Source: Utricularia gibba (taxonomy: Eukaryota > Streptophyta > Magnoliopsida > Lamiales > Lentibulariaceae). From it: 64,000 nucleotides of DNA. The stretch lies in contig NEEC01000007.1 in assembly GCA_002189035.1 (NCBI GenBank), forward strand, positions 3,640,654 to 3,704,653. The letters are read 5' to 3'. Positions 1-24,709 of this stretch are shown one piece after another (the stretch's first letter is position 1; every line of letters begins with the position of its first letter). The position numbers were made by a program, and so were the translations under genes. A model generated the notes under the pieces. It did no database searches and was not told the origin of the DNA. It saw only the letters and a list, made by a program, of their open reading frames with translations.

Positions 1-82
1 TTGGGCGGGTGATGTCGTTGTGAACTTCGTTCTGACCCAAGGTTCGGTCTGTCTCCTTTGCCAAATCTGGTCCTACTCGACG
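1..82 (+). repeat. Partial unit, type 2 B half
   Basis: The window opens inside a B half. TGTGAAC, TGTCTCC and CAAATCTGG are type 2 markers. It fits the end of the type 2 unit that would close a preceding eight-unit block. Confidence 0.85.
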
Positions 83-395
83 AAAATCGTGATGCAGTTA
101 TTGAAGTTAGGATTTCATGAGCACCCAAAATGCTTTTTCAATCGCATGCTTTGTAGTTGAGGAGGCGCTCTAGTGGGGCACGGTATCGGGCAAAAGGTCG
201 AGTCGGGCTCGCTCCCAGAGTCATTTTTAGCCTGTCAAAAAAAGTGATGCATTTATTAACGTTGGGTTTTAATAGGCTGCCTACATGGTTTCTCAAGGAA
301 AAGCTTGTCGTTTCTGGGCGGGTGATGTCTTTTGGAACTTCGTTCTGACCATAGGTTCGGTCTGACTCCTTTGCCACATCGGGTCCTACTCGACG
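83..395 (+). repeat. Type 1 unit, exemplar
   Basis: 313 bp. The diagnostic A-half reads AATGCTTTTTCAATCGC, then TTGTAGTTGAGGAGG, GCGCTCTAGTGG, GGGCACGG, CGGGCAAAAGG, GTCGGGCTCGC and TTTTTAGCCTGTC. The B half carries ACATGGTTTCTC, GTTTCTGGG, GATGTCTTTTGGAAC, GACCATAGG and CTGACTCC. GATGCA spacing is 155 bp (A) and 158 bp (B). Confidence 0.85.
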
Positions 396-552
396 AAAAT
401 CGTGATGCAGTTATTGAAGTTAGGATTTCATGAGCACCCAAAATGGTTTTCTCAACCGCATGCTTTATATTTGATAAGGTGCTCTCGTGGGGCAACGGTA
501 TCGAGTAGGAGGTCGAGTCGAGCTCGGGCCCATAGTCATTTGTAGCTCGGCA
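396..552 (+). repeat. Half-unit A, reference copy (type 2)
   Basis: This is the first 157 bp of a clean type 2 unit. It starts at AAAATCGTGATGCAG, carries AAAATGGTTTTCTCAA, a GCATGC palindrome, the marker GGTGCTCTCG, GAGTAGG, a CGA-rich stretch with CGAGCTCG and GGGCCC palindromes, and CATAGTC. It ends at the A-run before half B. Its start and the AATGGTTTTCTCAA block match half B at the same relative position, showing that the two halves descend from one ~157 bp monomer. Confidence 0.85.
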
Positions 553-709
553 AAAAACTTGATGCATTTATTAACGGTTGGTTTTAATAGGCTGCCTCAA
601 TGGTTTTCTCAAGGAAAAGCTTGTCGTTTTTGGGCGGGTGATGTCGTTGTGAACTTCGTTCTGACCAAGGTTCGGTCTGTCTCCTTTGCCAATCTGGTCC
701 TACTCGACG
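553..709 (+). repeat. Half-unit B, reference copy (type 2)
   Basis: This is the second 157 bp of the same unit. Its GATGCA at 561 corresponds to GATGCA at 404 in half A. Shared landmarks in order are TGATGCA-TTATT, the AATGGTTTTCTCAA block, GCTT, and a right end of the form GCC-AT-GTC-TA-CTCG-C-AAAA. Identity between halves looks like 50-60% by eye, so the duplication is old compared with the spread of the dimer. HindIII-type AAGCTT and TTCGTTCTGACC are constant landmarks here. Confidence 0.85.
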
Positions 710-2869
710 AAAATCGTGATGCAGTTATTGAAGTTAGGATTTCATGAGCACCCAAAATGCTTTTGTCAATCGCATGCTTTGTAGTTGAGGAGCGCTCTAG
801 TGGGGCACGGTATCGGGCAAAAGGTCGAGTCGGGCTCGCTCCCAGAGTCATTTTTAGCCTCAAAAAAAGTGATGCATTTATTAACGTTGGTTTTAATAGG
901 CTGCCTACATGGTTTCTCAAGGAAAAGCTTGTCGTTTCTGGGCGGGTGATGTCTTTTGGAACTTCGTTCTGACCATAGGTTCGGTCTGACTCCTTTGCCA
1001 CATCGGGTCCTACTCGACGAAAATCGTGATGCAGTTATTGAAGTTAGGATTCATGAGCACCCAAAATGGTTTTCTCAACCGCATGCTTTATATTTGATAA
1101 GGTCTCGTGGGGCAACGGTATCGAGCAGGAGGTCGAGTCGAGCTCGGGCCCAGAGTCATTTGTAGCCCGGCAAAAAAAATTGATGCATTTATTAACGTTG
1201 GTTTTTAGGCTGCCTACATGTTTCTCAAGGAAAAGCTTGTCGTTTCTGGGCGGGTGATGTCTTTTGGAACTTCGTTCTGACCAAGGTTCGGTCTGACTCC
1301 TTTGCCACATCGGGTCCTACTCGACGAAAATCGTGATGCAGTTATTGAAGTTAGGATTTCATGAGCACCCAAAATGGTTTTCTCAACCGCATGCTTTATA
1401 TTTGATAAGGCCTCTCGTGGGGCAACGGTATCGAGCAGGAGGTCGAGTCGAGCTCGGCCCAGAGTCATTTGTAGCCCGGCAAAAAAAATTGATGCATTTA
1501 TTAACGTTGGTTTTAGGCTGCCTACATGGTTTCTCAAGGAAAAGCTTGTCGTTTTTGGCGGGTGATGTCGTTGGAACTTCGTTCTGACCCAAGGTTCGGT
1601 CTGACTCCTTTGCCACATCGGGTCCTACTCGACGAAAATCGTGATGCAGTTATTGAAGTTAGGATTTCATGAGCACCCAAAATGGTTTTCTCAACCGCAT
1701 GCTTTATATTTGATAAGGCGCTCTCGTGGGGCAACGGTATCGAGCAGGAGGTCGAGTCGAGCTCGGGCCCATAGTCATTTGTAGCTCGGCAAAAAACTTG
1801 ATGCATTATTAACGTTGGTTTTAATAGACATGGTTTTCTCAAGGAAAAGCTTGTCGTTTTTGGCGGGTGATGTCGTTGGAACTTCGTTCTGACCCAAGGT
1901 TCGGTCTGACTCCTTTGCCACATCGGTCCTACTCGACGAAAATCGTGATGCAGTTATTGAAGTTAGGATTCATGAGCACCCAAAATGGTTTTCTCAACCG
2001 CATGCTTTATATTTGATAAGGCACTCTCGTGGGGCAACGGTATCGAGCAGGAGGTCGAGTCGAGCTCGGCCAGAGTCATTTGTAGCCCGGCAAAAAAATT
2101 GATGCATTTATTAACGTTCGGCTTTATTAGGCTGCCTACATGTTTCTCAAGGAAAAGCTTGTCGTTTCTGGCGGGTGATGTCTTTTGGAACTTCGTTCTG
2201 ACCAGGTTCGGTCTGACTCCTTTGCCACATCGGGTCCTACTCGACGAAAATCGTGATGCAGTTATTGAAGTTAGGATTTCATGAGCACCCAAAATGGTTT
2301 TCTCAACCGCATGCTTTATATTTGATAAGGTGCTCTCGTGGGGCAACGGTATCGAGTAGGAGGTCGAGTCGAGCTCGGGCCCATAGTCATTTGTAGCTCG
2401 GCAAAAAACTTGATGCATTTATTAACGGTTGGTTTTAATAGGCTGCCTCAATGGTTTTCTCAAGGAAAAGCTTGTCGTTTTGGGCGGGTGATGTCGTTGT
2501 GAACTTCGTTCTGACCCAAGGTTCGGTCTGTCTCCTTTGCCAATCTGGTCCTACTCGACGAAAATCGTGATGCAGTTATTGAAGTTAGGATTTCATGAGC
2601 ACCCAAAATGCTTTTGTCAATCGCATGCTTTGTAGTTGAGGAGGCGCTCTAGTGGGGCACGGTATCGGGCAAAAGGTCGAGTCGGGCTCGCCCAGAGTCA
2701 TTTTGCCTGTCAAAAAAAGTGATGCATTTATTAACGTTGGGTTTTAATAGGCTGCCTACATGGTTTCTCAAGGAAAAGCTTGTCGTTTCTGGGCGGTGAT
2801 GTCTTTTGGAACTTCGTTCTGACCATAGGTTCGGTCTGACTCCTTTGCCACATCGGGTCCTACTCGACG

Positions 2870-3184
2870 AAAATCGTGATGCAGTTATTGAAGTTAGGAT
2901 TTCATGAGCACCCAAAATGGTTTTCTCAACCGCATGCTTTATATTTGATAAGGTGCTCTCGTGGGGCAACGGTATCGAGTAGGAGGTCGAGTCGAGCTCG
3001 GGCCCATAGTCATTTGTAGCTCGGCAAAAAACTTGATGCATTTATTAACGGTTGGTTTTAATAGGCTGCCTCAATGGTTTTCTCAAGGAAAAGCTTGTCG
3101 TTTTTGGGCGGGTGATGTCGTTGTGAACTTCGTTCTGACCCAAGGTTCGGTCTGTCTCCTTTGCCAATCTGGTCCTACTCGACG
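2870..3184 (+). repeat. Type 2 unit, exemplar
   Basis: 315 bp. A-half markers are TTGATAAGGTGCTCTCG, GAGTAGG, GGGCCCATAGTC and AGCTCGGC. B-half markers are ACTTGATGCA, AACGGTTGG, CTCAATGGTTTTC, GATGTCGTTGTGAAC, GACCCAAGG, TGTCTCC and CCAATCTGG. Type 2 is usually the longest class, at 310-316 bp. Confidence 0.85.
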
Positions 3185-3497
3185 AAAATCGTGATGCAGT
3201 TATTGAAGTTAGGATTTCATGAGCACCCAAAATGCTTTTGTCAATCGCATGCTTTGTAGTTGAGGAGGCGCTCTAGTGGGGCACGGTATCGGGCAAAGGT
3301 CGAGTCGGGCTCGCTCCCAGAGTCATTTTTAGCCTGTCAAAAAAAGTGATGCATTTATTAACGTTGGGTTTTAATAGGCTGCCTACATGGTTTCTCAAGG
3401 AAAAGCTTGTCGTTTCTGGGCGGGTGATGTCTTTTGGAACTTCGTTCTGACCATAGGTTCGGTCTGACTCCTTTGCCACATCGGGTCCTACTCGACG

Positions 3498-3807
3498 AAA
3501 ATCGTGATGCAGTTATTGAAGTTAGGATTCATGAGCACCCAAAATGGTTTTCTCAACCGCATGCTTTATATTTGATAAGGCACTCTCGTGGGGCAACGGT
3601 ATCGAGCAGGAGGTCGAGTCGAGCTCGGGCCCAGAGTCATTTGTAGCCCGGCAAAAAAATTGATGCATTTATTAACGTTGGTTTATTAGGCTGCCTACAT
3701 GTTTCTCAAGGAAAAGCTTGTCGTTTCTGGGCGGGTGATGTCTTTTGGAACTTCGTTCTGACCAAGGTTCGGTCTGACTCCTTTGCCACATCGGGTCCTA
3801 CTCGACG
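3498..3807 (+). repeat. Type 3 unit, exemplar
   Basis: 310 bp. Markers are GGATTCATG (one T lost), GGCACTCTCG, GAGCAGG, GGGCCCAGAGTC, TAGCCCGGC, GTTGGTTTATTAGG and ACATGTTTCTC. The B half ends like type 1 but often with ACCAAGG instead of ACCATAGG. A sub-branch has GTTCGG in place of GTTGG and GGCTTTATT. Confidence 0.8.
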
Positions 3808-4118
3808 AAAATCGTGATGCAGTTATTGAAGTTAGGATTTCATGAGCACCCAAAATGGTTTTCTCAACCGCATGCTTTATATTTGATAAGGCGCTCTCGT
3901 GGGGCAACGGTATCGAGCAGGAGGTCGAGTCGAGCTCGGGCCCAGAGTCATTTGTAGCCCGGCAAAAAAATTGATGCATTTATTAACGTTGGTTTTAATA
4001 GGCTGCCTACATGGTTTCTCAAGGAAAAGCTTGTCGTTTCTGGCGGGTGATGTCGTTGGGAACTTCGTTCTGACCAAGGTTCGGTCTGACTCCTTTGCCA
4101 CATCGGTCCTACTCGACG

Positions 4119-4431
4119 AAAATCGTGATGCAGTTATTGAAGTTAGGATTCATGAGCACCCAAAATGGTTTTCTCAACCGCATGCTTTATATTTGATAAG
4201 GCGCTCTCGTGGGGCAACGGTATCGAGCAGGAGGTCGAGTCGAGCTCGGGCCCATAGTCATTTGTAGCTCGGCAAAAAACTTGATGCATTTATTAACGTT
4301 GGTTTTAATAGCTGCCTACATGGTTTTCTCAAGGAAAAGCTTGTCGTTTTTGGGCGGGTGATGTCGTTGTGAACTTCGTTCTGACCCAAGGTTCGGTCTG
4401 TCTCCTTTGCCAAATCTGGTCCTACTCGACG
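4119..4431 (+). repeat. H unit, exemplar (type 3 front, type 2 back)
   Basis: The unit begins with GGATTCATG and GAGCAGG as in type 3. It then carries CATAGTC, AGCTCGGC, ACTTG, TGTGAAC, TGTCTCC and CCAAATCTGG as in type 2. The dinucleotide before CTCTCG is CG. In the first 11 kb H units also share a disturbed AATAG-to-CATGG stretch in half B (for example AATAGCTGCC here). A recombination or conversion between type 3 and type 2 ancestors explains this best. Confidence 0.7.
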
Positions 4432-5057
4432 AAAATCGTGATGCAGTTATTGAAGTTAGGATTTCATGAGCACCCAAAATGGTTTTCTCAACCGCATGCT
4501 TTATATTTGATAAGGCACTCTCGTGGGGCAACGGTATCGAGCAGGAGGTCGAGTCGAGCTCGGCCCAGAGTCATTTGTAGCCCGGCAAAAAAAATTGATG
4601 CATTTATTAACGTTGGTTTATTAGGCTGCCTACATGGTTTCTCAAGGAAAGCTTGTCGTTTCTGGGCGGGTGATGTCTTTTGGAACTTCGTTCTGACCAT
4701 AGGTTCGGTCTGACTCCTTTGCCACATCGGGTCCTACTCGACGAAAATCGTGATGCAGTTATTGAAGTTAGGATTTCATGAGCACCCAAAATGGTTTTCT
4801 CAACCGCATGCTTTATATTTGATAAGGTGCTCTCGTGGGGCAACGGTATCGAGTAGGAGGTCGAGTCGAGCTCGGGCCCATAGTCATTTGTAGCTCGGCA
4901 AAAAACTTGATGCATTTATTAACGTTGGTTTTAATAGGCTGCCTCAATGGTTTTCTCAAGGAAAAGCTTGTCGTTTTTGGGCGGGTGATGTCGTTGTGAA
5001 CTTCGTTCTGACCCAAGGTTCGGTCTGTCTCCTTTGCCAATCTGGTCCTACTCGACG

Positions 5058-6619
5058 AAAATCGTGATGCAGTTATTGAAGTTAGGATTTCATGAGCACC
5101 CAAAATGCTTTTGTCAATCGCATGCTTTGTATTGAGGAGGCGCTCTAGTGGGGCACGGTATCGGGCAAAAGGTCGAGTCGGGCTCGCTCCCAGAGTCATT
5201 TTTAGCCTGCAAAAAAAGTGATGCATTTATTAACGTTGGGTTTTAATAGGCTGCCTACATGGTTTCTCAAGGAAAAGCTTGTCGTTTCTGGGCGGGTGAT
5301 GTCTTTTGGAACTTCGTTCTGACCATAGGTTCGGTCTGACTCCTTTGCCACATCGGGTCCTACTCGACGAAAATCGTGATGCAGTTATTGAAGTTAGGAT
5401 TCATGAGCACCCAAAATGGTTTTCTCAACCGCATGCTTTATATTTGATAAGGCACTCTCGTGGGGCAACGGTATCGAGCAGGAGGTCGAGTCGAGCTCGG
5501 CCCAGAGTCATTTGTAGCCCGGCAAAAAAAATTGATGCATTTATTAACGTTCGGCTTTATTAGGCTGCCTACATAGTTTCTCAAGGAAAAGCTTGTCGTT
5601 TCTGGGCGGGTGATGTCTTTTGGAACTTCGTTCTGACCAAGGTTCGGTCTGACTCCTTTGCCACATCGGGTCCTACTCGACGAAAATCGTGATGCAGTTA
5701 TTGAAGTTAGGATTCATGAGCACCCAAAATGGTTTTCTCAACCGCATGCTTTATATTTGATAGGAGGCGCTCTCGTGGGGCAACGGTATCGAGCAGGAGG
5801 TCGAGTCGAGCTCGGGCCCATAGTCATTTGTAGCTCGGCAAAAAACTTGATGCATTTATTAACGTTGGGTTTTAATAGCTGCCTACATTGTTTTCTCAAG
5901 GAAAAGCTTGTCGTTTTTGGGCGGGTGATTTCGTTGTGAACTTCGTTCTGACCCAAGGTTCGGTCTGTCTCCTTTGCCAAATCGGGTCCTACTCGACGAA
6001 AATCGTGATGCAGTTATTGAAGTTAGGATTTCATGAGCACCCAAAATGGTTTTCTCAACCGCATGCTTTATATTTGATAAGGCACTCTCGTGGGGCAACG
6101 GTATCGAGCAGGAGGTCGAGTCGAGCTCGGCCCAGAGTCATTTGTAGCCCGGCAAAAAAATTGATGCATTTATTAACGTTCGGCTTTATTAGGCTGCCTA
6201 CATGTTTCTCAAGGAAAAGCTTGTCGTTTCTGGGCGGGTGATGTCTTTTGGAACTTCGTTCTGACCATAGGTTCGGTCTGACTCCTTTGCCACATCGGGT
6301 CCTACTCGACGAAAATCGTGATGCAGTTATTGAAGTTAGGATTTCATGAGCACCCAAAATGGTTTTTCAACCGCATGCTTTATATTTGATAAGGTGCTCT
6401 CGTGGGGCAACGGTATCGAGTAGGAGGTCGAGTCGAGCTCGGGCCCATAGTCATTTGTAGCTCGGCAAAAAATTGATGCATTTATTAACGGTTGGTTTTA
6501 ATAGGCTGCCTATGGTTTTCTCAAGGAAAAGCTTGTCGTTTTGGCGGGTGATGTCGTTGTGAACTTCGTTCTGACCCAAGGTTCGGTCTGTCTCCTTTGC
6601 CAATCGGTCCTACTCGACG
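5058..6619 (+). repeat. Higher-order repeat, copy 3, shortened to five units
   Basis: Unit starts and types: 5058 (1), 5370 (3), 5683 (H), 5999 (3), 6312 (2). Length 1562 bp, about 935 bp less than copy 2, which is three whole units. Loss in whole units points to unequal exchange in register. The H unit at 5683 has the mixed marker TTGATAGGAGGCGC and GATTTCGTTG. Confidence 0.7.
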
Positions 6620-9093
6620 AAATCGTGATGCAGTTATTGAAGTTAGGATTTCATGAGCACCCAAAATGTTTTCTCAATCGCATGCTTTGTATTTGAGGAG
6701 GCGCTCGTGGGCACGGTATCGGGCGAGGTCGAGTCGGCTCGCCCAGAGTCATTTTTAGCCTGCAAAAAAATGATGCATTTATTAACGTTGGGTTTTAATA
6801 GGCTGCCTACATGGTTTCTCAAGGAAAAGCTTGTCGTTTCTGGCGGGTGATGTCTTTTGGAACTTCGTTCTGACCAAGGTTCGGTCTGACTCCTTTGCCA
6901 CATCGGGTCCTACTCGACGAAAATCGTGATGCAGTTATTGAAGTTAGGATTTCATGAGCACCCAAAATGGTTTTCTCAACCGCATGCTTTATATTTGATA
7001 AGGTGCTCTCGTGGGGCAACGGTATCGAGTAGGAGGTCGAGTCGAGCTCGGGCCCATAGTCATTTGTAGCTCGGCAAAAAAACTTGATGCATTTATTAAC
7101 GGTTGGTTTTAATAGGCTGCCTCAATGGTTTTCTCAAGGAAAAGCTTGTCGTTTTTGGGCGGGTGATGTCGTTGTGAACTTCGTTCTGACCCAAGGTTCG
7201 GTCTGTCTCCTTTGCCAATCTGGTCCTACTCGACGAAAATCGTGATGCAGTTATTGAAGTTAGGATTTCATGAGCACCCAAAATGTTTTGTCAATCGCAT
7301 GCTTTGTAGTTGAGGAGGCGCTCTAGTGGGGCACGGTATCGGGCAAAAGGTCGAGTCGGCTCGCTCCCAGAGTCATTTTTAGCCTGTCAAAAAAAGTGAT
7401 GCATTTATTAACGTTGGGTTTTAATAGGCTGCCTACATGGTTTCTCAAGGAAAAGCTTGTCGTTTCTGGGCGGGTGATGTCTTTTGGAACTTCGTTCTGA
7501 CCATAGGTTCGTCTGACTCCTTTGCCACATCGGGTCCTACTCGACGAAAATCGTGATGCAGTTATTGAAGTTAGGATTCATGAGCACCCAAAATGGTTTT
7601 CTCAACCGCATGCTTTATATTTGATAAGGCACTCTCGTGGGGCAACGGTATCGAGCAGGAGGTCGAGTCGAGCTCGGGCCCAGAGTCATTTGTAGCCCGG
7701 CAAAAAAAAATTGATGCATTTATTAACGTTGGCTTTATTAGGCTGCCTACATATTTCTCAAGGAAAAGCTTGTCGTTTCTGGCGGGTGATGTCTTTTGGA
7801 ACTTCGTTCTGACCCAAGGTTCGGTCTGACTCCTTTGCCACATCGGGTCCTACTCGACGAAAATCGTGATGCAGTTATTGAAGTTAGGATTTCATGAGCA
7901 CCCAAAATGGTTTTCTCAACCGCATGCTTTATATTTGATAAGGCACTCTCGTGGGGCAACGGTATCGAGCAGGAGGTCGAGTCGAGCTCGGCCCAGAGTC
8001 ATTTGTAGCCCGGCAAAAAAAATTGATGCATTTATTAACGTTGGCTTTATTAGGCTGCCTACATAGTTTCTCAAGGAAAAGCTTGTCGTTTCTGGCGGGT
8101 GATGTCGTTGGAACTTCGTTCTGACCCAAGGTTCGGTCTGACTCCTTTGCCACATCGGGTCCTACTCGACGAAAATCGTGATGCAGTTATTGAAGTTAGG
8201 ATTTCATGAGCACCCAAAATGGTTTTCTCAACCGCATGCTTTATATTTGAAGGCTCTCGTGGGGCAACGGTATCGAGCAGAGGTCGAGTCGAGCTCGGGC
8301 CCATAGTCATTTGTAGCTCGGCAAAAAACTTGATGCATTATTAACGTTGGTTTTAATAGCATTGTTTTCTCAAGGAAAAGCTTGTCGTTTTTGGGCGGGT
8401 GATGTCGTTTGGAACTTCGTTCTGACCAAGGTTCGGTCTGTCCTTTGCCAAATCGGTCCTACTCGACGAAAATCGTGATGCAGTTATTGAAGTTAGGATT
8501 TCATGAGCACCCAAAATGTTTTTCAACCGCATGCTTTATATTTGATAAGGCACTCTGGGGCAACGGTATCGAGCAGGAGGTCGAGTCGAGCTCGGGCCCA
8601 GAGTCATTTGTAGCCCGGCAAAAAAAATTGATGCATTTATTAACGTTCGGCTTTATTAGGCTGCCTACATAGTTTCTCAAGGAAAAGCTTGTCGTTTCTG
8701 GGCGGGTGATGTCTTTTGGAACTTCGTTCTGACCATAGGTTCGGTCTGACTCCTTTGCCACATCGGGTCCTACTCGACGAAAATCGTGATGCAGTTATTG
8801 AAGTTAGGATTTCATGAGCACCCAAAATGGTTTTCTCAACCGCATGCTTTATATTTGATAAGGTGCTCTCGTGGGGCAACGGTATCGAGTAGGAGGTCGA
8901 GTCGAGCTCGGGCCCATAGTCATTTGTAGCTCGGCAAAAAACTTGATGCATTTATTAACGTTGGTTTTAATAGGCTGCCTCAATGGTTTTCTCAAGGAAA
9001 AGCTTGTCGTTTTTGGGCGGGTGATGTCGTTGTGAACTTCGTTCTGACCCAAGGTTCGGTCTGTCTCCTTTGCCAATCTGGTCCTACTCGACG
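6620..9093 (+). repeat. Eight-unit higher-order repeat, copy 4
   Basis: Unit starts and types: 6620 (1, with several small deletions), 6920 (2), 7236 (1), 7547 (3), 7860 (3), 8172 (H, 297 bp), 8469 (3), 8780 (2). Length 2474 bp. Confidence 0.72.
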
Positions 9094-11593
9094 AAAATCG
9101 TGATGCAGTTATTGAAGTTAGGATTTCATGAGCACCCAAAATGCTTTTGTCAATCGCATGCTTTGTAGTTGAGGAGGCGCTCTAGTGGGGCACGGTATCG
9201 GCAAAAGGTCGAGTCGGCTCGCTCCCAGAGTCATTTTTAGCCTGCAAAAAAATTGATGCATTTATTAACGTTGGGTTTTAATAGGCTGCCTACATGGTTT
9301 CTCAAGGAAAAGCTTGTCGTTTCTGGGCGGGTGATGTCTTTTGGAACTTCGTTCTGACCATAGGTTCGGTCTGACTCCTTTGCCACATCGGGTCCTACTC
9401 GACGAAAATCGTGATGCAGTTATTGAAGTTAGGATTTCATGAGCACCCAAAATGGTTTTCTCAACCGCATGCTTTATATTTGATAAGGTGCTCTCGTGGG
9501 GCAACGGTCGAGTAGGAGGTCGAGTCGAGCTCGGGCCCATAGTCATTTGTAGCTCGGCAAAAAACTTGATGCATTTATTAACGTTGGTTTTAATAGGCTG
9601 CCTCAATGGTTTTCTCAAGGAAAAGCTTGTCGTTTTTTGGGCGGGTGATGTCGTTGTGAACTTCGTTCTGACCCAAGGTTCGGTCTGTCTCCTTTGCCAA
9701 TCTGGTCCTACTCGACGAAAATCGTGATGCAGTTTATTGAAGTTAGGATTTCATGAGCACCCAAAATGTTTTTGTCAATCGCATGCTTTGTAGTTGAGGA
9801 GGCGCTCTAGTGGGGCACGTATCGGGCAAAAGGTCGAGTCGGGCTCGCTCCCAGAGTCATTTTTAGCCTGTCAAAAAAAGTGATGCATTTATTAACGTTG
9901 GTTTTAATAGGCTGCCTACATGGTTTCTCAAGGAAAAGCTTGTCGTTTCTGGGCGGGTGATGTCTTTTGGAACTTCGTTCTGACCATAGGTTCGGTCTGA
10001 CTCCTTTGCCACATCGGGTCCTACTCGACGAAAATCGTGATGCAGTTATTGAAGTTAGGATTCATGAGCACCCAAAATGGTTTTCTCAACCGCATGCTTT
10101 ATATTTGATAAGGCACTCTCGTGGGGCAACGGTATCGAGAGCAGGAGGTCGAGTCGAGCTCGGGCCCAGAGTCATTTGTAGCCCGGCAAAAAAATTGATG
10201 CATTTATTAACGTTGGTTTTATTAGGCTGCCTACATAGTTTCTCAAGGAAAAGCTTGTCGTTTCTGGGCGGGTGATGTCTTTTGGAACTTCGTTCTGACC
10301 AAGGTTCGGTCTGACTCCTTTGCCACATCGGGTCCTACTCGACGAAAATCGTGATGCAGTTATTGAAGTTAGGATTCATGAGCACCCAAAATGGTTTTCT
10401 CAACCGCATGCTTTTATATTTGATAAGGCACTCTCGTGGGCAACGGTATCGAGCAGGAGGTCGAGTCGAGCTCGGCCCAGAGTCATTTGTAGCCCGGCAA
10501 AAAAAATTGATGCATTTATTAACGTTCGGCTTTATTAGGCTGCCTACATAGTTTCTCAAGGAAAAGCTTGTCGTTTCTGGCGGGTGATGTCGTTGGGAAC
10601 TTCGTTCGGACCCAAGGTTCTGTCTGACTCCTTTGCCACATCGGGTCCTACTCGACGAAAATCGTGATGCAGTTATTGAAGTTAGGATGTCATGAGCACC
10701 CAAAATGGTTTTCTCAACCGCATGCTTTATATTTGAGGAGGCGCTCTCGTGGGGCAACGGTATCGAGCAGGAGGTCGAGTCGAGCTCGGGCCCATAGTCA
10801 TTTGTAGCTCGGCAAAAAACTTGATGCATTTATTAACGTTGGTTTTAATATGCCTACATTGTTTTCTCAAGGAAAAGCTTGTCGTTTTTTGGGCGGGTGA
10901 TTTCGTTGTGAACTTCGTTCTGACCCAAGGTTCGGTCTGTCTCCTTTGCCAAATCGGTCCTACTCGACGAAAATCGTGATGCAGTTATTGAAGTTAGGAT
11001 TTCATGAGCACCCAAAATGGTTTTCTCAACCGCATGCTTTATATTTGAGGCGCTCTCGTGGGGCAACGGTATCGAGCAGGAGGTCGAGTCGAGCTCGGGC
11101 CCAGAGTCATTTGTAGCCGGCAAAAAAATTGATGCATTTATTAACGTTGGTTTTAATAGGCTGCCTACATGGTTTCTCAAGGAAAAGCTTGTCGTTTCTG
11201 GGCGGGTGATGTCTTTTGGAACTTCGTTCTGACCATAGGTTCGGTCTGACTCCTTTGCCACATCGGGTCCTACTCGACGAAAATCGTGATGCAGTTATTG
11301 AAGTTAGGATTTCATGAGCACCCAAAATGGTTTTCTCAACCGCATGCTTTATATTTGATAAGGTGCTCTCGTGGGGCAACGGTATCGAGTAGGAGGTCGA
11401 GTCGAGCTCGGGCCCATAGTCATTTGTAGCTCGGCAAAAAACTTGATGCATTTATTAACGGTTGGTTTTAATAGGCTGCCTCAATGGTTTTCTCAAGGAA
11501 AAGCTTGTCGTTTTTGGGCGGGTGATGTCGTTGTGAACTTCGTTCTGACCAAGGTTCGGTCTGTCTCCTTTGCCAATCTGGTCCTACTCGACG
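9094..11593 (+). repeat. Eight-unit higher-order repeat, copy 5
   Basis: Unit starts and types: 9094 (1), 9405 (2), 9718 (1), 10031 (3), 10345 (3), 10658 (H), 10970 (3-like), 11280 (2). Length 2500 bp. The H unit shares GATTTCGTTG and ACATTGTTTTC with the H unit at 5683. Confidence 0.72.
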
Positions 11594-14500
11594 AAAATCG
11601 TGATGCAGTTATTGAAGTTAGGATTTCATGAGCACCCAAAATGTTTTGTCAATCGCATGCTTTGTAGTTGAGGAGGCGCTCTAGTGGGGCACGGTATCGG
11701 GCAAAAGGTCGAGTCGGGCTCGCTCCCAGAGTCATTTTAGCCTGCAAAAAAAGTGATGCATTTATTAACGTTGGGTTTTAATAGGCTGCCTACATGGTTT
11801 CTCAAGGAAAAGCTTGTCGTTTCTGGGCGGGTGATGTCTTTTGGAACTTCGTTCTGACCATAGGTTCGGTCTGACTCCTTTGCCACATCGGGTCCTACTC
11901 GACGAAAATCGTGATGCAGTTATTGAAGTTAGGATTCATGAGCACCCAAAATGGTTTTCTCAACCGCATGCTTTATATTTGATAAGGCACTCTCGTGGGC
12001 AACGGTATCGAGCAGGAGGAGAGTCGAGCTCGGCCCAGAGTCATTTGTAGCCCGGCAAAAAAATTGATGCATTTATTAACGTTCGGTTTATTAGGCTGCC
12101 TACATAGTTTCTCAAGGAAAAGCTTGTCGTTTCTGGGCGGGTGATGTCTTTTGGAACTTCGTTCTGACCAAGGTTCGGTCTGACTCCTTTGCCACATCGG
12201 GTCCTACTCGAAAATCGTGATGCAGTTATTGAAGTTAGGATTCATGAGCACCCAAAATGGTTTTCTCAACCGCATGCTTTATATTTGATAGGCGCTCTCG
12301 TGGGGCAACGGTATCGAGCAGGAGGTCGAGTCGAGCTCGTCCCAGAGTCATTTGTAGCCGGCAAAAAAATTGATGCATTTATTAACGTTGGTTTATTAGG
12401 CTGCCTACATGTTTTCTCAAGGAAAAGCTTGTCGTTGGGCGGGTGATGTCGTTGGGAACTTCGTTCCCCAAGGTTCGTCTGACTCCTTTGCCACATCGGG
12501 TCCTACTCGACGAAAATCGTGATGCAGTTATTGAAGTTAGGATTCATGAGCACCCAAAATGGTTTTCTCAACCGCATGCTTTATATTTGAGGAGGCGCTC
12601 GTGGGCAACGGTATCGAGCAGGAGGTCGAGTCGAGCTCGGGCCCATAGTCATTTGTAGCTCGGCAAAAAACTTGATGCATTTATTAACGTTGGGTTTTAA
12701 TAGGCTGCCTACATGTTTTCTCAAGGAAAAGCTTGTCGTTTTTGGGCGGGTGATGTCGTTGTGAACTTCGTTCTGACCCAAGGTTCGGTCTGTCTCCTTT
12801 GCCAAATCTGGTCCTACTCGACGAAAATCGTGATGCAGTTATTGAAGTTAGGATTTCATGAGCACCCAAAATGGTTTTCTCAACGCATGCTTTATTTGAG
12901 GAGGCGCTCTAGTGGGGCAACGGTATCGAGCAAAGGTCGAGTCGGCTCGCCCAGAGTCATTTTTAGCCTGTCAAAAAAATGATGCATTTATTAACGTTGG
13001 GTTTAATAGGCTGCCTACATGGTTTCTCAAGGAAAAGCTTGTCGTTTCTGGGCGGTGATGTCTTTTGGAACTTCGTTCTGACCATAGGTTCGGTCTGACT
13101 CCTTTGCCACATCGGGTCCTACTCGACGAAAATCGTGATGCAGTTATTGAAGTTAGGATTTCATGAGCACCCAAATGGTTTTCTCAACCGCATGCTTTAT
13201 ATTTGATAAGGTGCTCTCGTGGGGCAACGGTATCGAGTAGGAGGTCGAGTCGAGCTCGGGCCCATAGTCATTTGTAGCTCGGCAAAAAACTTGATGCATT
13301 TATTAACGTTGGTTTTAATAGGCTGCCTCAATGGTTTTCTCAAGGAAAAGCTTGTCGTTTTTGGGCGGGTGATGTCGTTGTGAACTTCGTTCTGACCAAG
13401 GTTCGGTCTGTCTCCTTTGCCAATCTGGTCCTACTCGACGAAAATCGTGATGCAGTTATTGAAGTTAGGATTTCATGAGCACCCAAAATGCTTTTGTCAG
13501 CATGCTTTATAGTTTGAGGAGGCGCTCTAGTGGGCACGGTATCGGCAAAAGGTCGAGTCGGGCTCGCTCCAGAGTCATTTTAGCCGTCAAAAAAAGTGAT
13601 GCATTTATTAACGTTGGGTTTTAATAGGCTGCCTACATGGTTTCTCAAGGAAAAGCTTGTCGTTTCTGGGCGGTGATGTCTTTTGGAACTTCGTTCTGAC
13701 CATAGGTTCGGTCTGACTCCTTTGCCACATCGGGTCCTACTCGACGAAAATCGTGATGCAGTTATTGAAGTTAGGATTCATGAGCACCCAAAATGGTTTT
13801 CTCAACCGCATGCTTTATATTTGATAAGGCACTCTCGTGGGGCAACGGTATCGAGCAGGAGGTCGAGTCGAGCTCGGCCCAGTCATTTGTAGCCCGGCAA
13901 AAAAATTGATGCATTTATTAACGTTCGGTTTATTAGGCTGCCTACATAGTTTCTCAAGGAAAAGCTTGTCGTTTTGGGCGGGTGATGTCTTTTGGAACTT
14001 CGTTCTGACCATAGGTTCGGTCTGACTCCTTTGCCACATCGGGTCCTACTCGACGAAAATCGTGATGCAGTTATTGAAGTTAGGATTTCATGAGCACCCA
14101 AAATGGTTTTCTCAACCGCATGCTTTATATTTGATAAGGCTCTCGTGGGGCAACGGTATCGAGTAGGAGGTCGAGTCGAGCTCGGGCCCATAGTCATTTG
14201 TAGCTCGGCAAAAAACTTGATGCATTTATTAACGGTTGGTTTTAATAGGCTGCCTCAATGGTTTTCTCAAGGAAAAGCTTGTCGTTTTTGGCGGGGTGAT
14301 GTCGTTGTGAACTTCGTTCTGACCCAAGGTTCGGTCTGTCTCCTTTGCCAATCTGGTCCTACTCGACGAAAATCGTGATGCAGTTATTGAAGTTAGGATT
14401 TCATGAGCACCCAAAATGCTTTTGTCAATCGCATGCTTTGTAGTTGAGGAGGCGCTCTAGTGGGGCACGGTATCGGCAAAAGGTCGAGTCGGGCTCGCTC

Positions 14501-17473
14501 CCAGAGTCATTTTTAGCCTGTCAAAAAAAGTGATGCATTTATTAACGTTGGGTTTTAATAGGCTGCCTACATGGTTTCTCAAGGAAAAGCTTGTCGTTTC
14601 TGGGCGGGTGATGTCTTTTGGAACTTCGTTCTGACCATAGGTTCGGTCTGACTCGCCACATCGGGTCCTACTCGACGAAAATCGTGATGCAGTTATTGAA
14701 GTTAGGATTTCATGAGCACCCAAAATGGTTTTCTCAACCGCATGCTTTATATTTGATAAGGTGCTCTCGTGGGGCAACGGTATCGAGTAGGAGGTCGAGT
14801 CGAGCTCGGGCCCATAGTCATTTGTAGCTCGGCAAAAAACTTGATGCATTTATTAACGGTTGGTTTTAATAGGCTGCCTCAATGGTTTTCTCAAGGAAAA
14901 GCTTGTCGTTTTTGGGCGGGTGATGTCGTTGTGAACTTCGTTCTGACCCAAGGTTCGGTCTGTCTCCTTTGCCAATCTGGTCCTACTCGACGAAAATCGT
15001 GATGCAGTTATTGAAGTTAGGATTTCATGAGCACCCAAAATGCTTTTTCAACGCATGCTTTGTAGTTGAGGAGGCGCTCTAGTGGGGCACGGTATCGGGC
15101 AAAAGGTCGAGTCGGGCTCGCTCCAGAGTCATTTTAGCCTGTCAAAAAAAGTGATGCATTTATTAACGTTGGGTTTTAATAGGCTGCCTACATGGTTTCT
15201 CAAGGAAAAGCTTGTCGTTTCTGGGCGGGTGATGTCTTTTGGAACTTCGTTCTGACCATAGGTTCGGTCTGACTCCTTTGCCACATCGGGTCCTACTCGA
15301 CGAAAATCGTGATGCAGTTATTGAAGTTAGGATTCATGAGCACCCAAAATGGTTTTCTCAACCGCATGCTTTATATTTGATAAGGCACTCTCGTGGGGCA
15401 ACGGTATCGAGCAGGAGGTCGAGTCGAGCTCGGGCCCAGAGTCATTTGTAGCCCGGCAAAAAATTGATGCATTTATTAACGTTGGTTTAATAGGCTGCCT
15501 ACATGGTTTCTCAAGGAAAAGCTTGTCGTTTTGGGCGGGTGATGTCTTTTGGAACTTCGTTCTGACCAGGTTCGGTCTGACTCCTTTGCCACATCGGTCC
15601 TACTCGACGAAAATCGTGATGCAGTTATTGAAGTTAGGATTCATGAGCACCCAAAATGGTTTTCTCAACCGCATGCTTTATATTTGATAAGGCACTCTCG
15701 TGGGGCAACGGTATCGAGCAGGAGGTCGAGTCGAGCTCGGGCCCAGAGTCATTTGTAGCCCGGCAAAAAAATTGATGCATTTATTAACGTTGGTTTAATA
15801 GGCTGCCTACATGGTTTCTCAAGGAAAAGCTTGTCGTTTCTGGGCGGGTGATGTCTTTTGGAACTTCGTTCTGACCAAGGTTCGGTCTGACTCCTTTGCC
15901 ACATCGGGTCCTACTCGACGAAAATCGTGATGCAGTTATTGAAGTTAGGATTCATGAGCACCCAAAATTTTTCTCAACGCATGCTTTATATTTGAGGAGG
16001 CGCTCTCGTGGGGCACGGTATCGAGCAAAAGGTCGAGTCGGGCTCGTCCCAGAGTCATTTTTAGCCCGTCAAAAAATTGATGCATTTATTAACGTTGGGT
16101 TTAATAGGCTGCCTACATGGTTTCTCAAGGAAAAGCTTGTCGTTTCTGGGCGGGTGATGTCTTTTGGAACTTCGTTCTGACCATAGGTTCGGTCTGACTC
16201 CTTTGCCACATCGGGTCCTACTCGACGAAAATCGTGATGCAGTTATTGAAGTTAGGATTTCATGAGCACCCAAAATGGTTTTCTCAACCGCATGCTTTAT
16301 ATTTGATAAGGTGCTCTCGTGGGGCAACGGTATCGAGCAGGAGGTCGAGTCGAGCTCGGCCCATAGTCATTTGTAGCTCGGCAAAAAACTTGATGCATTT
16401 ATTAACGGTTGGTTTTAATAGGCTGCCTCAATGGTTTTCTCAAGGAAAGCTTGTCGTTTTGGGCGGGTGATGTCTTTTGAAACTTCGTTCTGACCAGTTC
16501 GGTCTGACTCCTTTGCCACATCGGGTCCTACTCGACGAAAATCGTGATGCAGTTATTGAAGTTAGGATTCATGAGCACCCAAAATGGTTTTCTCAACCGC
16601 ATGCTTTATATTTGATAAGGCACTCTCGTGGGGCAACGGTATCGAGCAGGAGGTCGAGTCGAGCTCGGTCCCAGAGTCATTTGTAGCCCGGCAAAAAAAA
16701 TTGATGCATTTATTAACGTTGGTTTATTAGGCTGCCTACATGTTTCTCAAGGAAAAGCTTGTCGTTTCTGGCGGGTGATGTCGTTGGAACTTCGTTCTGA
16801 CCCAAGGTTCGGTCTGACTCCTTTGCCACATCGGGTCCTACTCGACGAAAATCGTGATGCAGTTATTGAAGTTAGGATTCATGAGCACCCAAAATGGTTT
16901 TCTCAACCGCATGCTTTATATTTGAGGAGGCTCTCGTGGGGCAACGGTATCGAGCAGGAGGTCGAGTCGAGCTCGGGCCCATAGTCATTTGTAGCTCGGC
17001 AAAAAACTTGATGCATTTATTAACGTTGGTTTTAATAGGCTGCCTACATTGTTTTCTCAAGGAAAAGCTTGTCGTTTTTGGGCGGGTGATGTCGTTGTGA
17101 ACTTCGTTCTGACCAAGGTTCGGTCTGACTCCTTTGCCACATCGGGTCCTACTCGACGAAAATCGTGATGCAGTTATTGAAGTTAGGATTTCATGAGCAC
17201 CCAAAATGGTTTTCTCAACCGCATGCTTTATATTTGATAAGGTGCTCTCGTGGGGCAACGGTATCGAGTAGGAGGTCGAGTCGAGCTCGGGCCCATAGTC
17301 ATTTGTAGCTCGGCAAAAAACTTGATGCATTTATTAACGGTTGGTTTTAATAGGCTGCCTCAATGGTTTTCTCAAGGAAAAGCTTGTCGTTTTTGGCGGG
17401 TGATGTCGTTGTGAACTTCGTTCTGACCCAAGGTTCGGTCTGTCTCCTTTGCCAAATCTGGTCCTACTCGACG
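11594..17473 (+). repeat. Satellite block with broken higher-order order
   Basis: Unit starts and types: 11594 (1), 11905 (3), 12211 (3), 12513 (H), 12824 (1h), 13129 (2), 13441 (1), 13747 (3), 14056 (2), 14369 (1), 14678 (2), 14993 (1), 15303 (3), 15610 (3), 15921 (1h), 16228 (2 front, 3 back), 16538 (3), 16848 (H), 17159 (2). Pieces of the eight-unit order remain (1-2-1-3-3 at 14369-15920), but whole units are missing or replaced. Confidence 0.65.
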
Positions 17474-17981
17474 AAAATCGTGATGCAGTTATTGAAGTTA
17501 GGATTTCATGAGCACCCAAAATGCTTTTGTCAATCGCATGCTTTGTAGTTGAGGAGGCGCTCTAGTGGGGCACGGTATCGGGCAAAAGGTCGAGTCGGGC
17601 TCGCTCCAGAGTCATTTTTAGCCCAAAAAAAGTGATGCATTTATTAACGTTGGGTTTTAATAGGCTGCCTACATGGTTTCTCAAGGAAAAGCTTGTCGTT
17701 TCTGGGGGTGATGTCTTTTGGAACTTCGTTCTGACCATAGGTTCGGTCTGACTCCTTTGCCACATCGGGTCCTACTCGACGAAAATCGTGATGCAGTTAT
17801 TGAAGTTAGGATTTCATGAGCACCCAAAATGGTTTTCTCAACCGCATGCTTTATATTTGATAAGGTGCTCTCGTGGGGCAACGGTATCGAGTAGGAGGTC
17901 GAGTCGAGCTCGGGCCATAGTCATTTGTAGCTCGGCAAAAAACTTGATGCATTTATTAACGTTGGTTTTAATAGGCTGCCT

Positions 17982-18195
17982 CAATGGTTTCTCAAGGAAA
18001 AGCTTGTCGTTTTGGCGGGTGATGTCGTTGTGAACTTCGTTCTGACCAAGGTTCGGTCTGTCCTTTGCCAATGGTTTTCTCAAGGAAAAGCTTGTCGTCT
18101 TTTGGGCGGGTGATAGTCGTTGGCAAAAAACTGAACTTCGTTCTGAAAAGCCAAGGTTCGGTCTGACTCCTTTGCCAAATCGGTCCTACTCGACG
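17982..18195 (+). repeat. Partial internal duplication of a B half with small insertions
   Basis: The B segment starting CAATGG at 17982 runs to TTTGCCA at 18070 and then restarts at CAATGG (18069). About 105 bp is therefore present twice, and the unit is 414 bp long. The joint shares CAAT between TTGCCAATC and CTCAATGG. Copy two carries extra bases: a 9 bp GCAAAAAAC at 18123-18131 that equals the normal A/B junction, an extra C in GTCGTCTTTTGGG, an extra A in GATAGTCG, and an AAAG in TTCTGAAAAGCC. Confidence 0.8.
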
Positions 18196-19441
18196 AAAAT
18201 CGTGATGCAGTTATTGAAGTTAGGATTTCATGAGCACCCAAAATGGTTTTTCAACGCATGCTTTATATTTGATATAAGCGCTCTAGTGTGGGCACGGGTA
18301 TCGGCAAAAGGTCGAGTCGGGCTCGCCCCAGTCATTTTGTAGCCCGCAAAAAAATGATGCATCATTTATAACGTTGGGTTTTAATAGGCTGCCTACATGG
18401 TTTCTCAAGGAAAAGCTTGTCGTTTCTGGGCGGGTGATGTCTTTTGGAACTTCGTTCTGACCATAGGTTCGGTCTGACTCCTTTGCCACATCGGGTCCTA
18501 CTCGACGAAAATCGTGATGCAGTTATTGAAGTTAGGATTTCATGAGCACCCAAAATGGTTTTCTCAACCGCATGCTTTATATTTGATAAGGTGCTCTCGT
18601 GGGGCAACGGTATCGAGTAGGAGGTCGAGTCGAGCTCGGGCCCATAGTCATTTGTAGCTCGGCAAAAAACTTGATGCATTTATTAACGGTTGGTTTTAAT
18701 AGGCTGCCTCAATGGTTTTCTCAAGGAAAAGCTTGTCGTTTTTGGGCGGGTGATGTCGTTGTGAACTTCGTTCTGACCCAAGGTTCGGTCTGTCTCCTTT
18801 GCCAAATCTGGTCCTACTCGACGAAAATCGTGATGCAGTTATTGAAGTTAGGATTTCATGAGCACCCAAAATGCTTTTCAATCGCATGCTTTGTAGTTGA
18901 GGAGGCGCTCTAGTGGGGCACGGTATCGGGCAAAAGGTCGAGTCGGGCTCGCCCAGAGTCATTTTAGCCTGTCAAAAAAAGTGATGCATTTATTAACGTT
19001 GGGTTTTAATAGGCTGCCTACATGGTTTCTCAAGGAAAAGCTTGTCGTTTCTGGGCGGGTGATGTCTTTTGGAACTTCGTTCTGACCATAGGTTCGGTCT
19101 GACTCCTTTGCCACATCGGGTCCTACTCGACGAAAATCGTGATGCAGTTATTGAAGTTAGGATTTCATGAGCACCCAAAATGGTTTTCTCAACCGCATGC
19201 TTTATATTTGATAAGGTGCTCTCGTGGGGCAACGGTATCGAGTAGGAGGTCGAGTCGAGCTCGGGCCCATAGTCATTTGTAGCTCGGCAAAAAACTTGAT
19301 GCATTTATTAACGGTTGGTTTTAATAGGCTGCCTCAAGGTTTTCTCAAGGAAAAGCTTGTCGTTTTTGGGGGTGATGTCTGTGAACTTCGTTCTGACCAA
19401 GGTTCGGTCTGTCTCCTTTGCCAATCTGGTCCTACTCGACG

Positions 19442-19765
19442 AAAATCGTGATGCAGTTATTGAAGTTAGGATTTCATGAGCACCCAAAATGCTTTTTCTC
19501 GATGTCGTCTGTGAACTTCGTTCTGACCCAAAAAAAAATTGTTCGGTCTGCCTCTCCTTTGCCAATCTGGTCCTACTCGACGAACGAAAATCGTGATGCA
19601 GTTATTGAAGTTAGGATTTCATGAGCACCTCAAAAAAAAACTTGATGCATTTATTAACGGTTGGTTTTAATAGGCTGCTTTTTTTTGGGCGGGTGATGTC
19701 GTTGTGAACTTCGTTCTGACCCAAGGTTCGGTCTGTCTCCTTTGCCAATCTGGTCCTACTCGACG
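19442..19765 (+). repeat. Two truncated units with homopolymer runs at the joints
   Basis: The 145 bp unit at 19442 jumps from CTTTTTCTC in half A (about 19500) to GATGTCGTCTGTGAAC in half B. It then has a nine-A run at 19530-19538 and a duplicated CGAACG before the next anchor. The 179 bp unit at 19587 jumps from GAGCACCT to a nine-A run at 19632-19640. In half B it jumps from GGCTGC to an eight-T run at 19679-19686. Together they amount to about one normal unit length. Confidence 0.8.
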
Positions 19766-20999
19766 AAAATCGTGATGCAGTTATTGAAGTTAGGATTTCA
19801 TGAGCACCCAAAATGCTTTTTCAATCGCATGCTTTATATTTGAGGAGGCGCTCTAGTGGGGCACGGTATCGGGCAAAAGGTCGAGTCGGGCTCGCTCCCA
19901 GAGTCATTTTTTAGCCTGTCAAAAAAAAGTGATGCATTTATTAACGTTGGTTTTAATAGGCTGCCTACATGTTTCTCAAGGAAAAGCTTGTCGTTTCTGG
20001 GCGGGTGATGTCTTTTGGAACTTCGTTCTGACCATAGGTTCGGTCTGACTCCTTTGCCACATCGGGTCCTACTCGACGAAAATCGTGATGCAGTTATTGA
20101 AGTTAGGATTTCATGAGCACCAAAATGGTTTTCTCAACCGCATGCTTTATATTTGATAAGGTGCTCTCGTGGGGCAACGGTATCGAGTAGGAGGTCGAGT
20201 CGAGCTCGGGCCCATAGTCATTTGTAGCTCGGCAAAAAACTTGATGCATTTATTAACGTTGGTTTTAATAGGCTGCCTCATGGTTTTCTCAAGGAAAAGC
20301 TTGTCGTTTTTGGGCGGGTGATGTCGTTGTGAACTTCGTTCTGACCCAAGGTTCGGTCTGTCTCCTTTGCCAAATCTGGTCCTACTCGACGAAAATCGTG
20401 ATGCAGTTATTGAAGTTAGGATTTCATGAGCACCAAATTGGCATGCTTTGTAGTTGAGGAGGCGCTCTAGTGGGGCAACGGTATCGGGCAAAGGTCGAGT
20501 CGGGCTCGCCCAGAGTCATTTTAGCCTGTCAAAAAAAGTGATGCATTTATTAACGTTGGTTTTAATAGGCTGCCTACATGGTTTCAAGGAAAAGCTTGTC
20601 GTTTCTGGGCGGGTGATGTCTTTTGGAACTTCGTTCTGACCATAGGTTCGGTCTGACTCCTTTGCCACATCGGGTCCTACTCGACGAAAATCGTGATGCA
20701 GTTATTGAAGTTAGGATTTCATGAGCACCCAAAATGGTTTTCTCAACCGCATGCTTTATATTTGATAAGGCACTCTCGTGGGGCAACGGTATCGAGCAGG
20801 AGGTCGAGTCGAGCTCGGGCCATAGTCATTTGTAGCTCGGCAAAAAACTTGATGCATTTATTAACGGTTGGTTTTAATAGGCTGCCTCATGGTTTTCTCA
20901 AGGAAAAGCTTGTCGTTTTTGGGCGGGTGATGTCGTTGTGAACTTCGTTCTGACCCAAGGTTCGGTCTGTCTCCTTTGCCAATCTGGTCCTACTCGACG

Positions 21000-22855
21000 A
21001 AAATCGTGATGCAGTTATTGAAGTTAGGATTTCATGAGCACCCAAAATGCTTTTTCAATCGCATGCTTTGTAGTTGAGGAGGCGCTCTAGTGGGGCACGG
21101 TATCGGGCAAAAGGTCGAGTCGGGCTCGCTCCAGAGTCATTTTTAGCCGGCAAAAAAGTGATGCATTTATTAACGTTGGGTTTTAATAGGCTGCCTACAT
21201 GGTTTCTCAAGGAAAAGCTTGTCGTTTCTGGGCGGGTGATGTCTTTTGGAACTTCGTTCTGACCATAGGTTCGGTCTGACTCCTTTGCCACATCGGGTCC
21301 TACTCGACGAAAATCGTGATGCAGTTATTGAAGTTAGGATTTCATGAGCACCCAAAATGGTTTTCTCAACCGCATGCTTTATATTTGATAAGGCACTCTC
21401 GTGGGGCAACGGTATCGAGCAGGAGGTCGAGTCGAGCTCGGGCCCAGAGTCATTTGTAGCCCGGCAAAAAATTGATGCATTTATTAACGTTGGTTTAATA
21501 GGCTGCCTACAAGTTTCTCAAGGAAAAGCTTGTCGTTTCTGGGCGGGTGATGTCTTTTGGAACTTCGTTCTGACCATAGTTCGGTCTGACTCCTTTGCCA
21601 CATCGGGTCCTACTCGACGAAAATCGTGATGCAGTTATTGAAGTTAGGATTCATGAGCACCCAAAATGGTTTCTCAACCGCATGCTTTATATTTGATAAG
21701 GCGCTCTCGTGGGGCAACGGTATCGAGCAGGAGGTCGAGTCGAGCTCGGGCCCAGTCATTTGTAGCTCGGCAAAAAAATTGATGCATTTATTAACGTTGG
21801 TTTAATAGGCTGCCTACATGGTTTCTCAAGGAAAAGCTTGTCGTTTCTGGGCGGGTGATGTCTTTTGGAACTTCGTTCTGACCATAGTTCGGTCTGACTC
21901 CTTTGCCACATCGGGTCCTACTCGACGAAAATCGTGATGCAGTTATTGAAGTTAGGATTTCATGAGCACCCAAAATGGTTTTCTCAACCGCATGCTTTAT
22001 ATTGATAAGGCGCTCTCGTGGGGCAACGGTATCGAGCAGGAGGTCGAGTCGAGCTCGGGCCCAGAGTCATTTGTAGCCGGCAAAAAAATTGATGCATTTA
22101 TTAACGTTGGTTTTAATAGGCTGCCTACATGTTTCTCAAGGAAAAAGCTTGTCGTTTGGCGGGTGATGTCGTTGGGAACTTCGTTCTGACCAAGGTTCGG
22201 TCTGACTCCTTTGCCACATCGGGTCCTACTCGACGAAAATCGTGATGCAGTTATTGAAGTTAGGATTCATGAGCACCCAAAATGGTTTTCTCAACCGCAT
22301 GCTTTATATTTGATAGGCGCTCTCGTGGGGCAACGGTATCGAGCAGGAGGTCGAGTCGAGCTCGGCCCAGAGTCATTTGTAGCCGGCAAAAAACTTGATG
22401 CATTTATTAACGTTGGGTTTTAATAGGCCCTACATGTTTTCTCAAGGAAAAGCTTGTCGTTTTTGGGCGGGTGATGTCTTGGAACTTCGTTCTGACCAAG
22501 GTTCGGTCTGTCTCCTTTGCCACATCGGTCCTACTCGACGAAAATCGTGATGCAGTTATTGAAGTTAGGATTTCATGAGCACCCAAAATGGTTTTCTCAA
22601 CCGCATGCTTTATATTTGATAAGGTGCTCTCGTGGGGCAACGGTATCGAGTAGGAGGTCGAGTCGAGCTCGGGCCCATAGTCATTTGTAGCTCGGCAAAA
22701 AACTTGATGCATTTATTAACGGTTGGTTTTAATAGGCTGCCTCAATGGTTTTCTCAAGGAAAAGCTTGTCGTTTTTGGCGGGTGATGTCGTTGTGAACTT
22801 CGTTCTGACCCAAGGTTCGGTCTGTCTCCTTTGCCAAATCTGGTCCTACTCGACG
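21000..22855 (+). repeat. Six-unit higher-order repeat, copy 1
   Basis: Unit starts and types: 21000 (1), 21310 (3), 21620 (3), 21928 (3), 22236 (H), 22541 (2). Length 1856 bp. The H unit has GATAGGCGCTCTCG and TAGCCGGCAAAAAACTTG, both repeated in the H unit of the next copy. Confidence 0.72.
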
Positions 22856-24709
22856 AAAATCGTGATGCAGTTATTGAAGTTAGGATTTCATGAGCACCCA
22901 AAATGCTTTTGTCAATCGCATGCTTTGTAGTTGAGGAGGCGCTCTAGTGGGGCACGGTATCGGGCAAAAGGTCGAGTCGGCTCGCCCAGAGTCATTTTAG
23001 CCGTCAAAAAAATGATGCATTTATTAACGTTGGGTTTTAATAGGCTGCCTACATGGTTTCTCAAGGAAAAGCTTGTCGTTTCTGGCGGGTGATGTCTTTT
23101 GAACTTCGTTCTGACCATAAGGTTCGGTCTGACTCCTTTGCCACATCGGGTCCTACTCGACGAAAATCGTGATGCAGTTATTGAAGTTAGGATTCATGAG
23201 CACCCAAAATGGTTTTCTCAACCGCATGCTTTATATTTGATAAGGCCTCTCGTGGGGCAACGGTATCGAGCAGGAGGTCGAGTCGAGCTCGGGCCCAGTC
23301 ATTTGTAGCCCGGCAAAAAATTGATGCATTTATTAACGTTGGTTTAATAGGCTGCCTAATGTTTCTCAAGGAAAAGCTTGTCGTTTTGGGCGGTGATGTC
23401 TTTTGGAACTTCGTTCTGACCAAGGTTCGGTCTGACTCCTTTGCCACATCGGGTCCTACTCGACGAAAATCGTGATGCAGTTATTGAAGTTAGGATTTCA
23501 TGAGCACCCAAAATGGTTTTCTCAACCGCATGCTTTATATTTGATAAGGCGCTCTCGTGGGGCAACGGTATCGAGCAGGAGGTCGAGTCGAGCTCGGGCC
23601 AGAGTCATTTGTAGCCCGGCAAAAAAATTGATGCATTTATTAACGTTTGGTTTTAATAGGCTGCCTACATGGTTTCTCAAGGAAAAGCTTGTCGTTTCTG
23701 GGCGGGTGATGTCTTTTGGAACTTCGTTCTGACCATAGGTTCGGTCTGACTCCTTTGCCACATCGGGTCCTACTCGACGAAAATCGTGATGCAGTTATTG
23801 AAGTTAGGATTCATGAGCACCCAAAATGGTTTTCTCAACCGCATGCTTTATATTTGATAAGGCACTCTCGTGGGGCAACGGTATCGAGCAGGAGGTCGAG
23901 TCGAGCTCGGGCCAGAGTCATTTGTAGCCGGCAAAAAAATTGATGCATTTATTAACGTTGGTTTTAATAGGCTGCCTACATGTTTCTCAAGGAAAAGCTT
24001 GTCGTTTCTGGGCGGGTGATGTCGTTGGGAACTTCGTTCTGACCAGGTTCGGTCTGACTCCTTTGCCATCGGGTCCTACTCGACGAAAATCGTGATGCAG
24101 TTATTGAAGTTAGGATTCATGAGCACCCAAAATGGTTTTTCTCAACGCATGCTTTATATTTGATAGGCGCTCTCGTGGGGCAACGGTATCGAGCAGGAGG
24201 TCGAGTCGAGCTCGGGCCCAGAGTCATTTGTAGCCGGCAAAAAACTTGATGCATTTATTAACGTTGGTTTTAATAGGCTGCCTACATGTTTTCTCAAGGA
24301 AAAGCTTGTCGTTTTTGGGCGGGTGATGTCTTGTGAACTTCGTTCTGACCATAGGTTCGGTCTGACTCCTTTGCCAATCGGGTCCTACTCGACGAAAATC
24401 GTGATGCAGTTATTGAAGTTAGGATTTCATGAGCACCCAAAATGGTTTTCTCAACCGCATGCTTTATATTTGATAAGGTGCTCTCGTGGGGCAACGGTAT
24501 CGAGTAGGAGGTCGAGTCGAGCTCGGGCCCATAGTCATTTGTAGCTCGGCAAAAAACTTGATGCATTTATTAACGGTTGGTTTTAATAGGCTGCCTCAAT
24601 GGTTTTCTCAAGGAAAAGCTTGTCGTTTTTGGGCGGGTGATGTCGTTGTGAACTTCGTTCTGACCCAAGGTTCGGTCTGTCTCCTTTGCCAATCTGGTCC
24701 TACTCGACG
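22856..24709 (+). repeat. Six-unit higher-order repeat, copy 2
   Basis: Unit starts and types: 22856 (1), 23163 (3), 23466 (3), 23780 (3), 24086 (H), 24395 (2). Length 1854 bp, only 2 bp different from copy 1 and in identical order. Confidence 0.72.

Follow-up and report, generated by a model that had tools for sequence, protein, structure and literature searches.

Nested eight- and 21-unit repeats in a dimeric satellite array of Utricularia gibba

The putative centromeric regions of Utricularia gibba are described in PMC8333044 as being without satellite repeats, with four chromosomes regarded as putatively entire. The deposited assembly of this species comprises 101 Mb (records NEEC01000001-518; PMC6982007). 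Satellite arrays in general are usually proposed to grow by unequal crossing-over, slippage and gene conversion, and a higher-order repeat, as defined for TRASH, consists of blocks of at least three units in which paired units have no more than five differences (PMC10199239). Arabidopsis has local higher-order repeats (PMC10199239), and the higher-order repeat described here in a U. gibba satellite, Sat1A, is thus a known kind of thing.

The Sat1A array and related satellites in the genome

Investigation of the window, the whole 64-kb stretch of DNA analysed (positions 1..64000, forward strand), with Tandem Repeats Finder (TRF) and unit anchors (n = 208) revealed head-to-tail dimeric units of ~310 bp, which were named Sat1A. 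The array covers at least 218 kb of contig C213, starting at about position 3,486,181, with the window as its final 64 kb, and Sat1A has the long head-to-tail arrays, single unit and high copy number of satellite DNA. When the two half-units are aligned, 106 of 142 positions match (score 71.7, shuffled maximum 38.4), and the unit is thus an old dimer, in agreement with the internally dimeric satellite of the original prediction. Unit typing on 38 diagnostic sites, carried out independently of that prediction, sorted the units into three main types (A, B and C) and hybrids. An Rfam scan of window positions 1-3000 matched nothing. The ~310-bp register is broken at window positions 17781, 19441-19764, 42593 and 56709, with spacings of 414, 145 + 179, 264 and 406 bp, respectively, which may represent partial units or joins.

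Contig C213 (3,704,653 bp) opens with CCCTAAA plant telomere repeats and ends, together with the window, inside the array, which occupies the inner end of an arm that bears a telomere; the start of the array adjoins a coding stretch matching RVT_2, a reverse transcriptase of the Ty1-copia type (E 4.6e-42). At C213:3500654-3501653, satellite sequence with very many short deletions and in jumbled order was observed, resembling a failed consensus and not real sequence.

The genome examined comprised 100.09 Mb in 516 contigs. Among these are a plastid contig that carries rbcL and a mitochondrial one, the COX1 of which reads LLLLCCSALVEVG; according to PMC3141634, cytochrome c oxidase has two contiguous cysteines in Utricularia and in some Genlisea. 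A 35-base Sat1A probe gave 7,863 matches genome-wide at no more than 2 mismatches, equivalent to ~2.4 Mb at one match per unit. A sister family, Sat1B, with 67-79% identity to Sat1A in the alignments made, had 6,515 sites that match one 24-base probe exactly (~2.0 Mb); it was observed on C7, C8, C33, C60, C260 and C300 with a unit length near that of Sat1A (305-314 bp by TRF), and could be a marker of the second parental genome of polyploid U. gibba. Sat2, with units of ~340 bp (334-347 bp) and no detected similarity to Sat1, gave 3,512 exact probe matches (~1.2 Mb) and is present on C32 and C49 as well as at the inner ends of the telomere-bearing contigs C244 and C451 (telomere to Sat2) and C480 (Sat2 to telomere), which have the same telomere-arm-satellite layout as C213.

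Together the three satellites amount to ~5.6 Mb, in contigs other than the chromosome-scale C1-C4 (8.50, 6.19, 5.35 and 3.85 Mb), where exact probes for Sat1 and Sat2 had no site among the matches listed (in contig order). Telomere repeats are present at both ends of C3 and C4 and only at the start of C1 and C2. The sizes of ten contigs (C1, C2, C280, C350, C360, C390, C409, C470, C505 and C515) are exact multiples of 2,500 (8,500,000 and 6,192,500 for example), which, together with the missing end telomere of C1 and C2, was probably caused by truncation in polishing. One end of contig C460 (880 kb) carries Sat1A and the opposite end a Sat1 variant in inverted orientation, and samples taken at 100-850 kb contained no satellite, so that Sat1 blocks are not simply present once per chromosome. 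Similarly, C510 (382 kb) has satellite in opposite orientation at both ends and none in the samples between them; both contigs represent either satellite blocks flanking non-satellite sequence or misassembly.

Eight-unit blocks, the 21-unit super-repeat and their extent

The original prediction described an eight-unit repeat in four copies with the order 1-2-1-3-3-H-3-2. The block starts and lengths obtained here (Table 1) reproduce this repeat, and the independent typing arrives at the same order, with 1 corresponding to C, 2 to A, 3 to B and H to a hybrid unit. The unit in the sixth slot clustered as F, A or E depending on the block; since substitutions between whole blocks are so few, it is essentially one hybrid unit in all of them.

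Table 1. Blocks formed by the first 42 Sat1A units of the window (window positions)
Block	Position	Strand	Unit order	Length (bp)	Super-repeat closed by block	Basis
Eight-unit h1	82..2559	+	CACBBFBA	2478		Unit typing, block alignment
Eight-unit h2	2560..5056	+	CACBBABA	2497		Unit typing, block alignment
Five-unit	5057..6617	+	CBABA		82-6617 (6536 bp)	Unit typing, block alignment
Eight-unit h3	6618..9092	+	DACBBFBA	2475		Unit typing, block alignment
Eight-unit h4	9093..11592	+	CACBBEDA	2500		Unit typing, block alignment
Five-unit, diverged	11593..13127	+	CBNEG		6618-13127 (6510 bp)	Diagnostic sites, block alignment

The four reported copies make up the 8-mer pairs in two consecutive 8+8+5 super-repeats, and the 21 units directly upstream of the window (CACBBEBA CACBBEBA CBFBA) form a third such block, giving a total of six 8-mers within three super-repeats of 21 units and ~6.5 kb each. 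Blocks h1-h4 differ pairwise by 3-16 substitutions per ~2.46 kb, compared to 67-150 at other offsets, and with the upstream pair included the differences among the six blocks are graded from 3 to 19, with 3 and 4 between 8-mers within a super-repeat and 5 and 7 between super-repeats in register. Counting substitutions only, identity between consecutive 21-unit copies is 99.67% and 98.87%, one more 21-unit step upstream (array units 279-299) aligns at 97.2%, and the diverged five-unit block differs from the other five-unit blocks by 46-48 substitutions. Blocks h1 and h2 are separated by 3 substitutions over eight units and by 36 gap events, together a mean of ~4.9 differences per unit, which is within the TRASH definition of a higher-order repeat.

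The eight-unit order had been expected to give an identity maximum at lag 8, and would have been abandoned if lag 8 were no higher than lags 1-7. Over units 1-37, identity at lag 8 (94.8%) is above that at lags 1-7 (90.3-93.4%), so that the order stands in this respect, but lags 21 (97.0%) and 29 (96.6%) are higher still. The 38 diagnostic sites alone give 84.3% at lag 8, 52.6-73.4% at lags 1-7, 94.4% at lag 21 and 93.4% at lag 29.

The 8+8+5 order is limited to ~20 kb of the array. The best lag, determined for successive 50-unit stretches over 164 kb, shifts among 30, 22, 21, 14, 28, 16, 10, 2 and others, and the single array-wide period of the human alpha-satellite type is therefore absent; over the entire window the best lag is 2, which points to alternation of A with C and of A with B. 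Because other local periods dominate elsewhere, the array is a mosaic of local duplications with no array-wide order. Regarding the minimum of three amplification levels originally proposed, a multi-unit order over the dimer is present, but the period of ~2.48 kb is not the highest one and does not hold generally, and with the ~6.5-kb super-repeat and the other periods elsewhere there are more than three levels, the upper ones being local. A separate 28-unit repeat of ~8.1 kb was observed upstream of the window (C213 units 123-174, ~3.58-3.60 Mb), with copies differing by 90 substitutions over 8005 aligned bases.

Origin of the order and a possible centromeric role

The eight-unit order could in principle be a chance outcome of a few unit types simply alternating, and a perfect 8/8 type match at lag 8 was obtained in some Markov-1 simulations of unit succession (maximum 8, mean 5.8); however, the 18/21 type matches at lag 21 lie above all 300 simulations (15/21 or fewer), and the blocks have a much higher nucleotide identity to each other than is seen at other offsets. 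With the same units in random order (2000 orderings), identity at lag 8 on the diagnostic sites averaged 63.5%, the highest value being 78.1%, and matching-unit runs sum to 2393, compared to 221-346 in shuffles. Chance order was rejected as extremely improbable. Assembly artefacts, either overlapping read layouts joined in series or collapsed repeats expanded again, would account for some or all block copies in another way. Indels far exceed substitutions between copies, as between h1 and h2; the share of cells with a deletion is 5.81% for type-discriminating columns, 2.03% for homopolymers with a length of at least 3 and 0.43% for plain columns, deletions being 13 times commoner at type-discriminating than at plain columns, as would be expected from the consensus of mixed, error-prone long reads; and the stretch near 3.5007 Mb of C213 looks shredded. 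Given this deletion pattern, the length differences between blocks are largely consensus error and not biology; within the array the assembly is unreliable, and the copy number is uncertain. False duplication would nevertheless leave no substitutions, whereas those among the six blocks are graded, which argues against simple false duplication, as do the substitutions of the diverged five-unit block, and the nested order with several distinct periods along the array likewise speaks against artefact. Artefactual copies are thus considered improbable.

The Sat1A stretch is, with good probability, a locally amplified, nested, high-copy plant satellite that would have grown by out-of-register recombination, a centromeric or pericentromeric domain being its probable setting. 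In this history a ~157-bp monomer would have given rise to the ~310-bp dimer, and the dimer units would have diverged into the three main types and recombinant hybrids; multi-unit segments may then have been duplicated repeatedly, whether by exchange out of register between sister chromatids or by break-induced replication, with the 8-unit block and the 8+8+5 block, recognisable three times, as products. Regarding location, it is somewhat probable that the C213 array itself is part of a centromeric or pericentromeric domain, and a putative centromeric role for the satellite is likely. It is possible, if rather doubtful, that the array is real but non-centromeric, a pericentromeric or interstitial heterochromatin block grown by the same recombination. 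The oppositely oriented Sat1 arrays that flank ~0.8 Mb of other sequence in C460, and the similar C510, are consistent with such a block, as is the fact that the matches listed include no site of Sat1 or Sat2 in C1-C4, which implies that a chromosome can do without these satellites; but the arrays are located at non-telomeric ends of arm-sized contigs (C213, and C244, C451 and C480 for Sat2), as breaks of the assembly at centromeres would give. A tentative suggestion is that U. gibba has mixed centromeres, with large nested arrays of Sat1A, Sat1B or Sat2 on some chromosomes while the chromosomes assembled from telomere to telomere have satellite-free centromeres; the published absence of satellites would then reflect which chromosomes were assembled completely.

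Comparison with known satellite systems

Like human alpha-satellite higher-order repeats, Sat1A is built from distinct types of unit that follow one another in a set order, nested and hybrid variants included, but it is a plant sequence without a single array-wide period. The CENP-B box NTTCGNNNNANNCGGGN had no exact match on either strand of window positions 1-5000. Similarly to CEN178 of Arabidopsis thaliana (PMC10199239), Sat1A is made of plant monomers of about nucleosome length, arranged head to tail over long arrays in which multi-unit segments are locally duplicated with many periods; it differs in its ~157-bp monomer, which is fixed as a ~310-bp dimer, in the species and in a far less accurate assembly. 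The nested blocks are ordinary behaviour for a centromere-type satellite, nested local duplication of units being the route by which centromere arrays of plants and animals are thought to grow, seen here in one of the smallest plant genomes.

Less expected, in view of the absence of satellites stated in PMC8333044, is the presence of three abundant satellites outside the chromosome-scale sequences. The four chromosome-scale sequences agree with that description, having no satellite site among the matches listed; unlike the centromeres described there, ~5.6 Mb of satellite is present here in other contigs, in several cases at inner arm ends. This wider point matters more than the nested duplication itself: with these satellites located outside the four sequences on which the centromeres were discussed, satellite-free and satellite-based centromeres become testable within one species.
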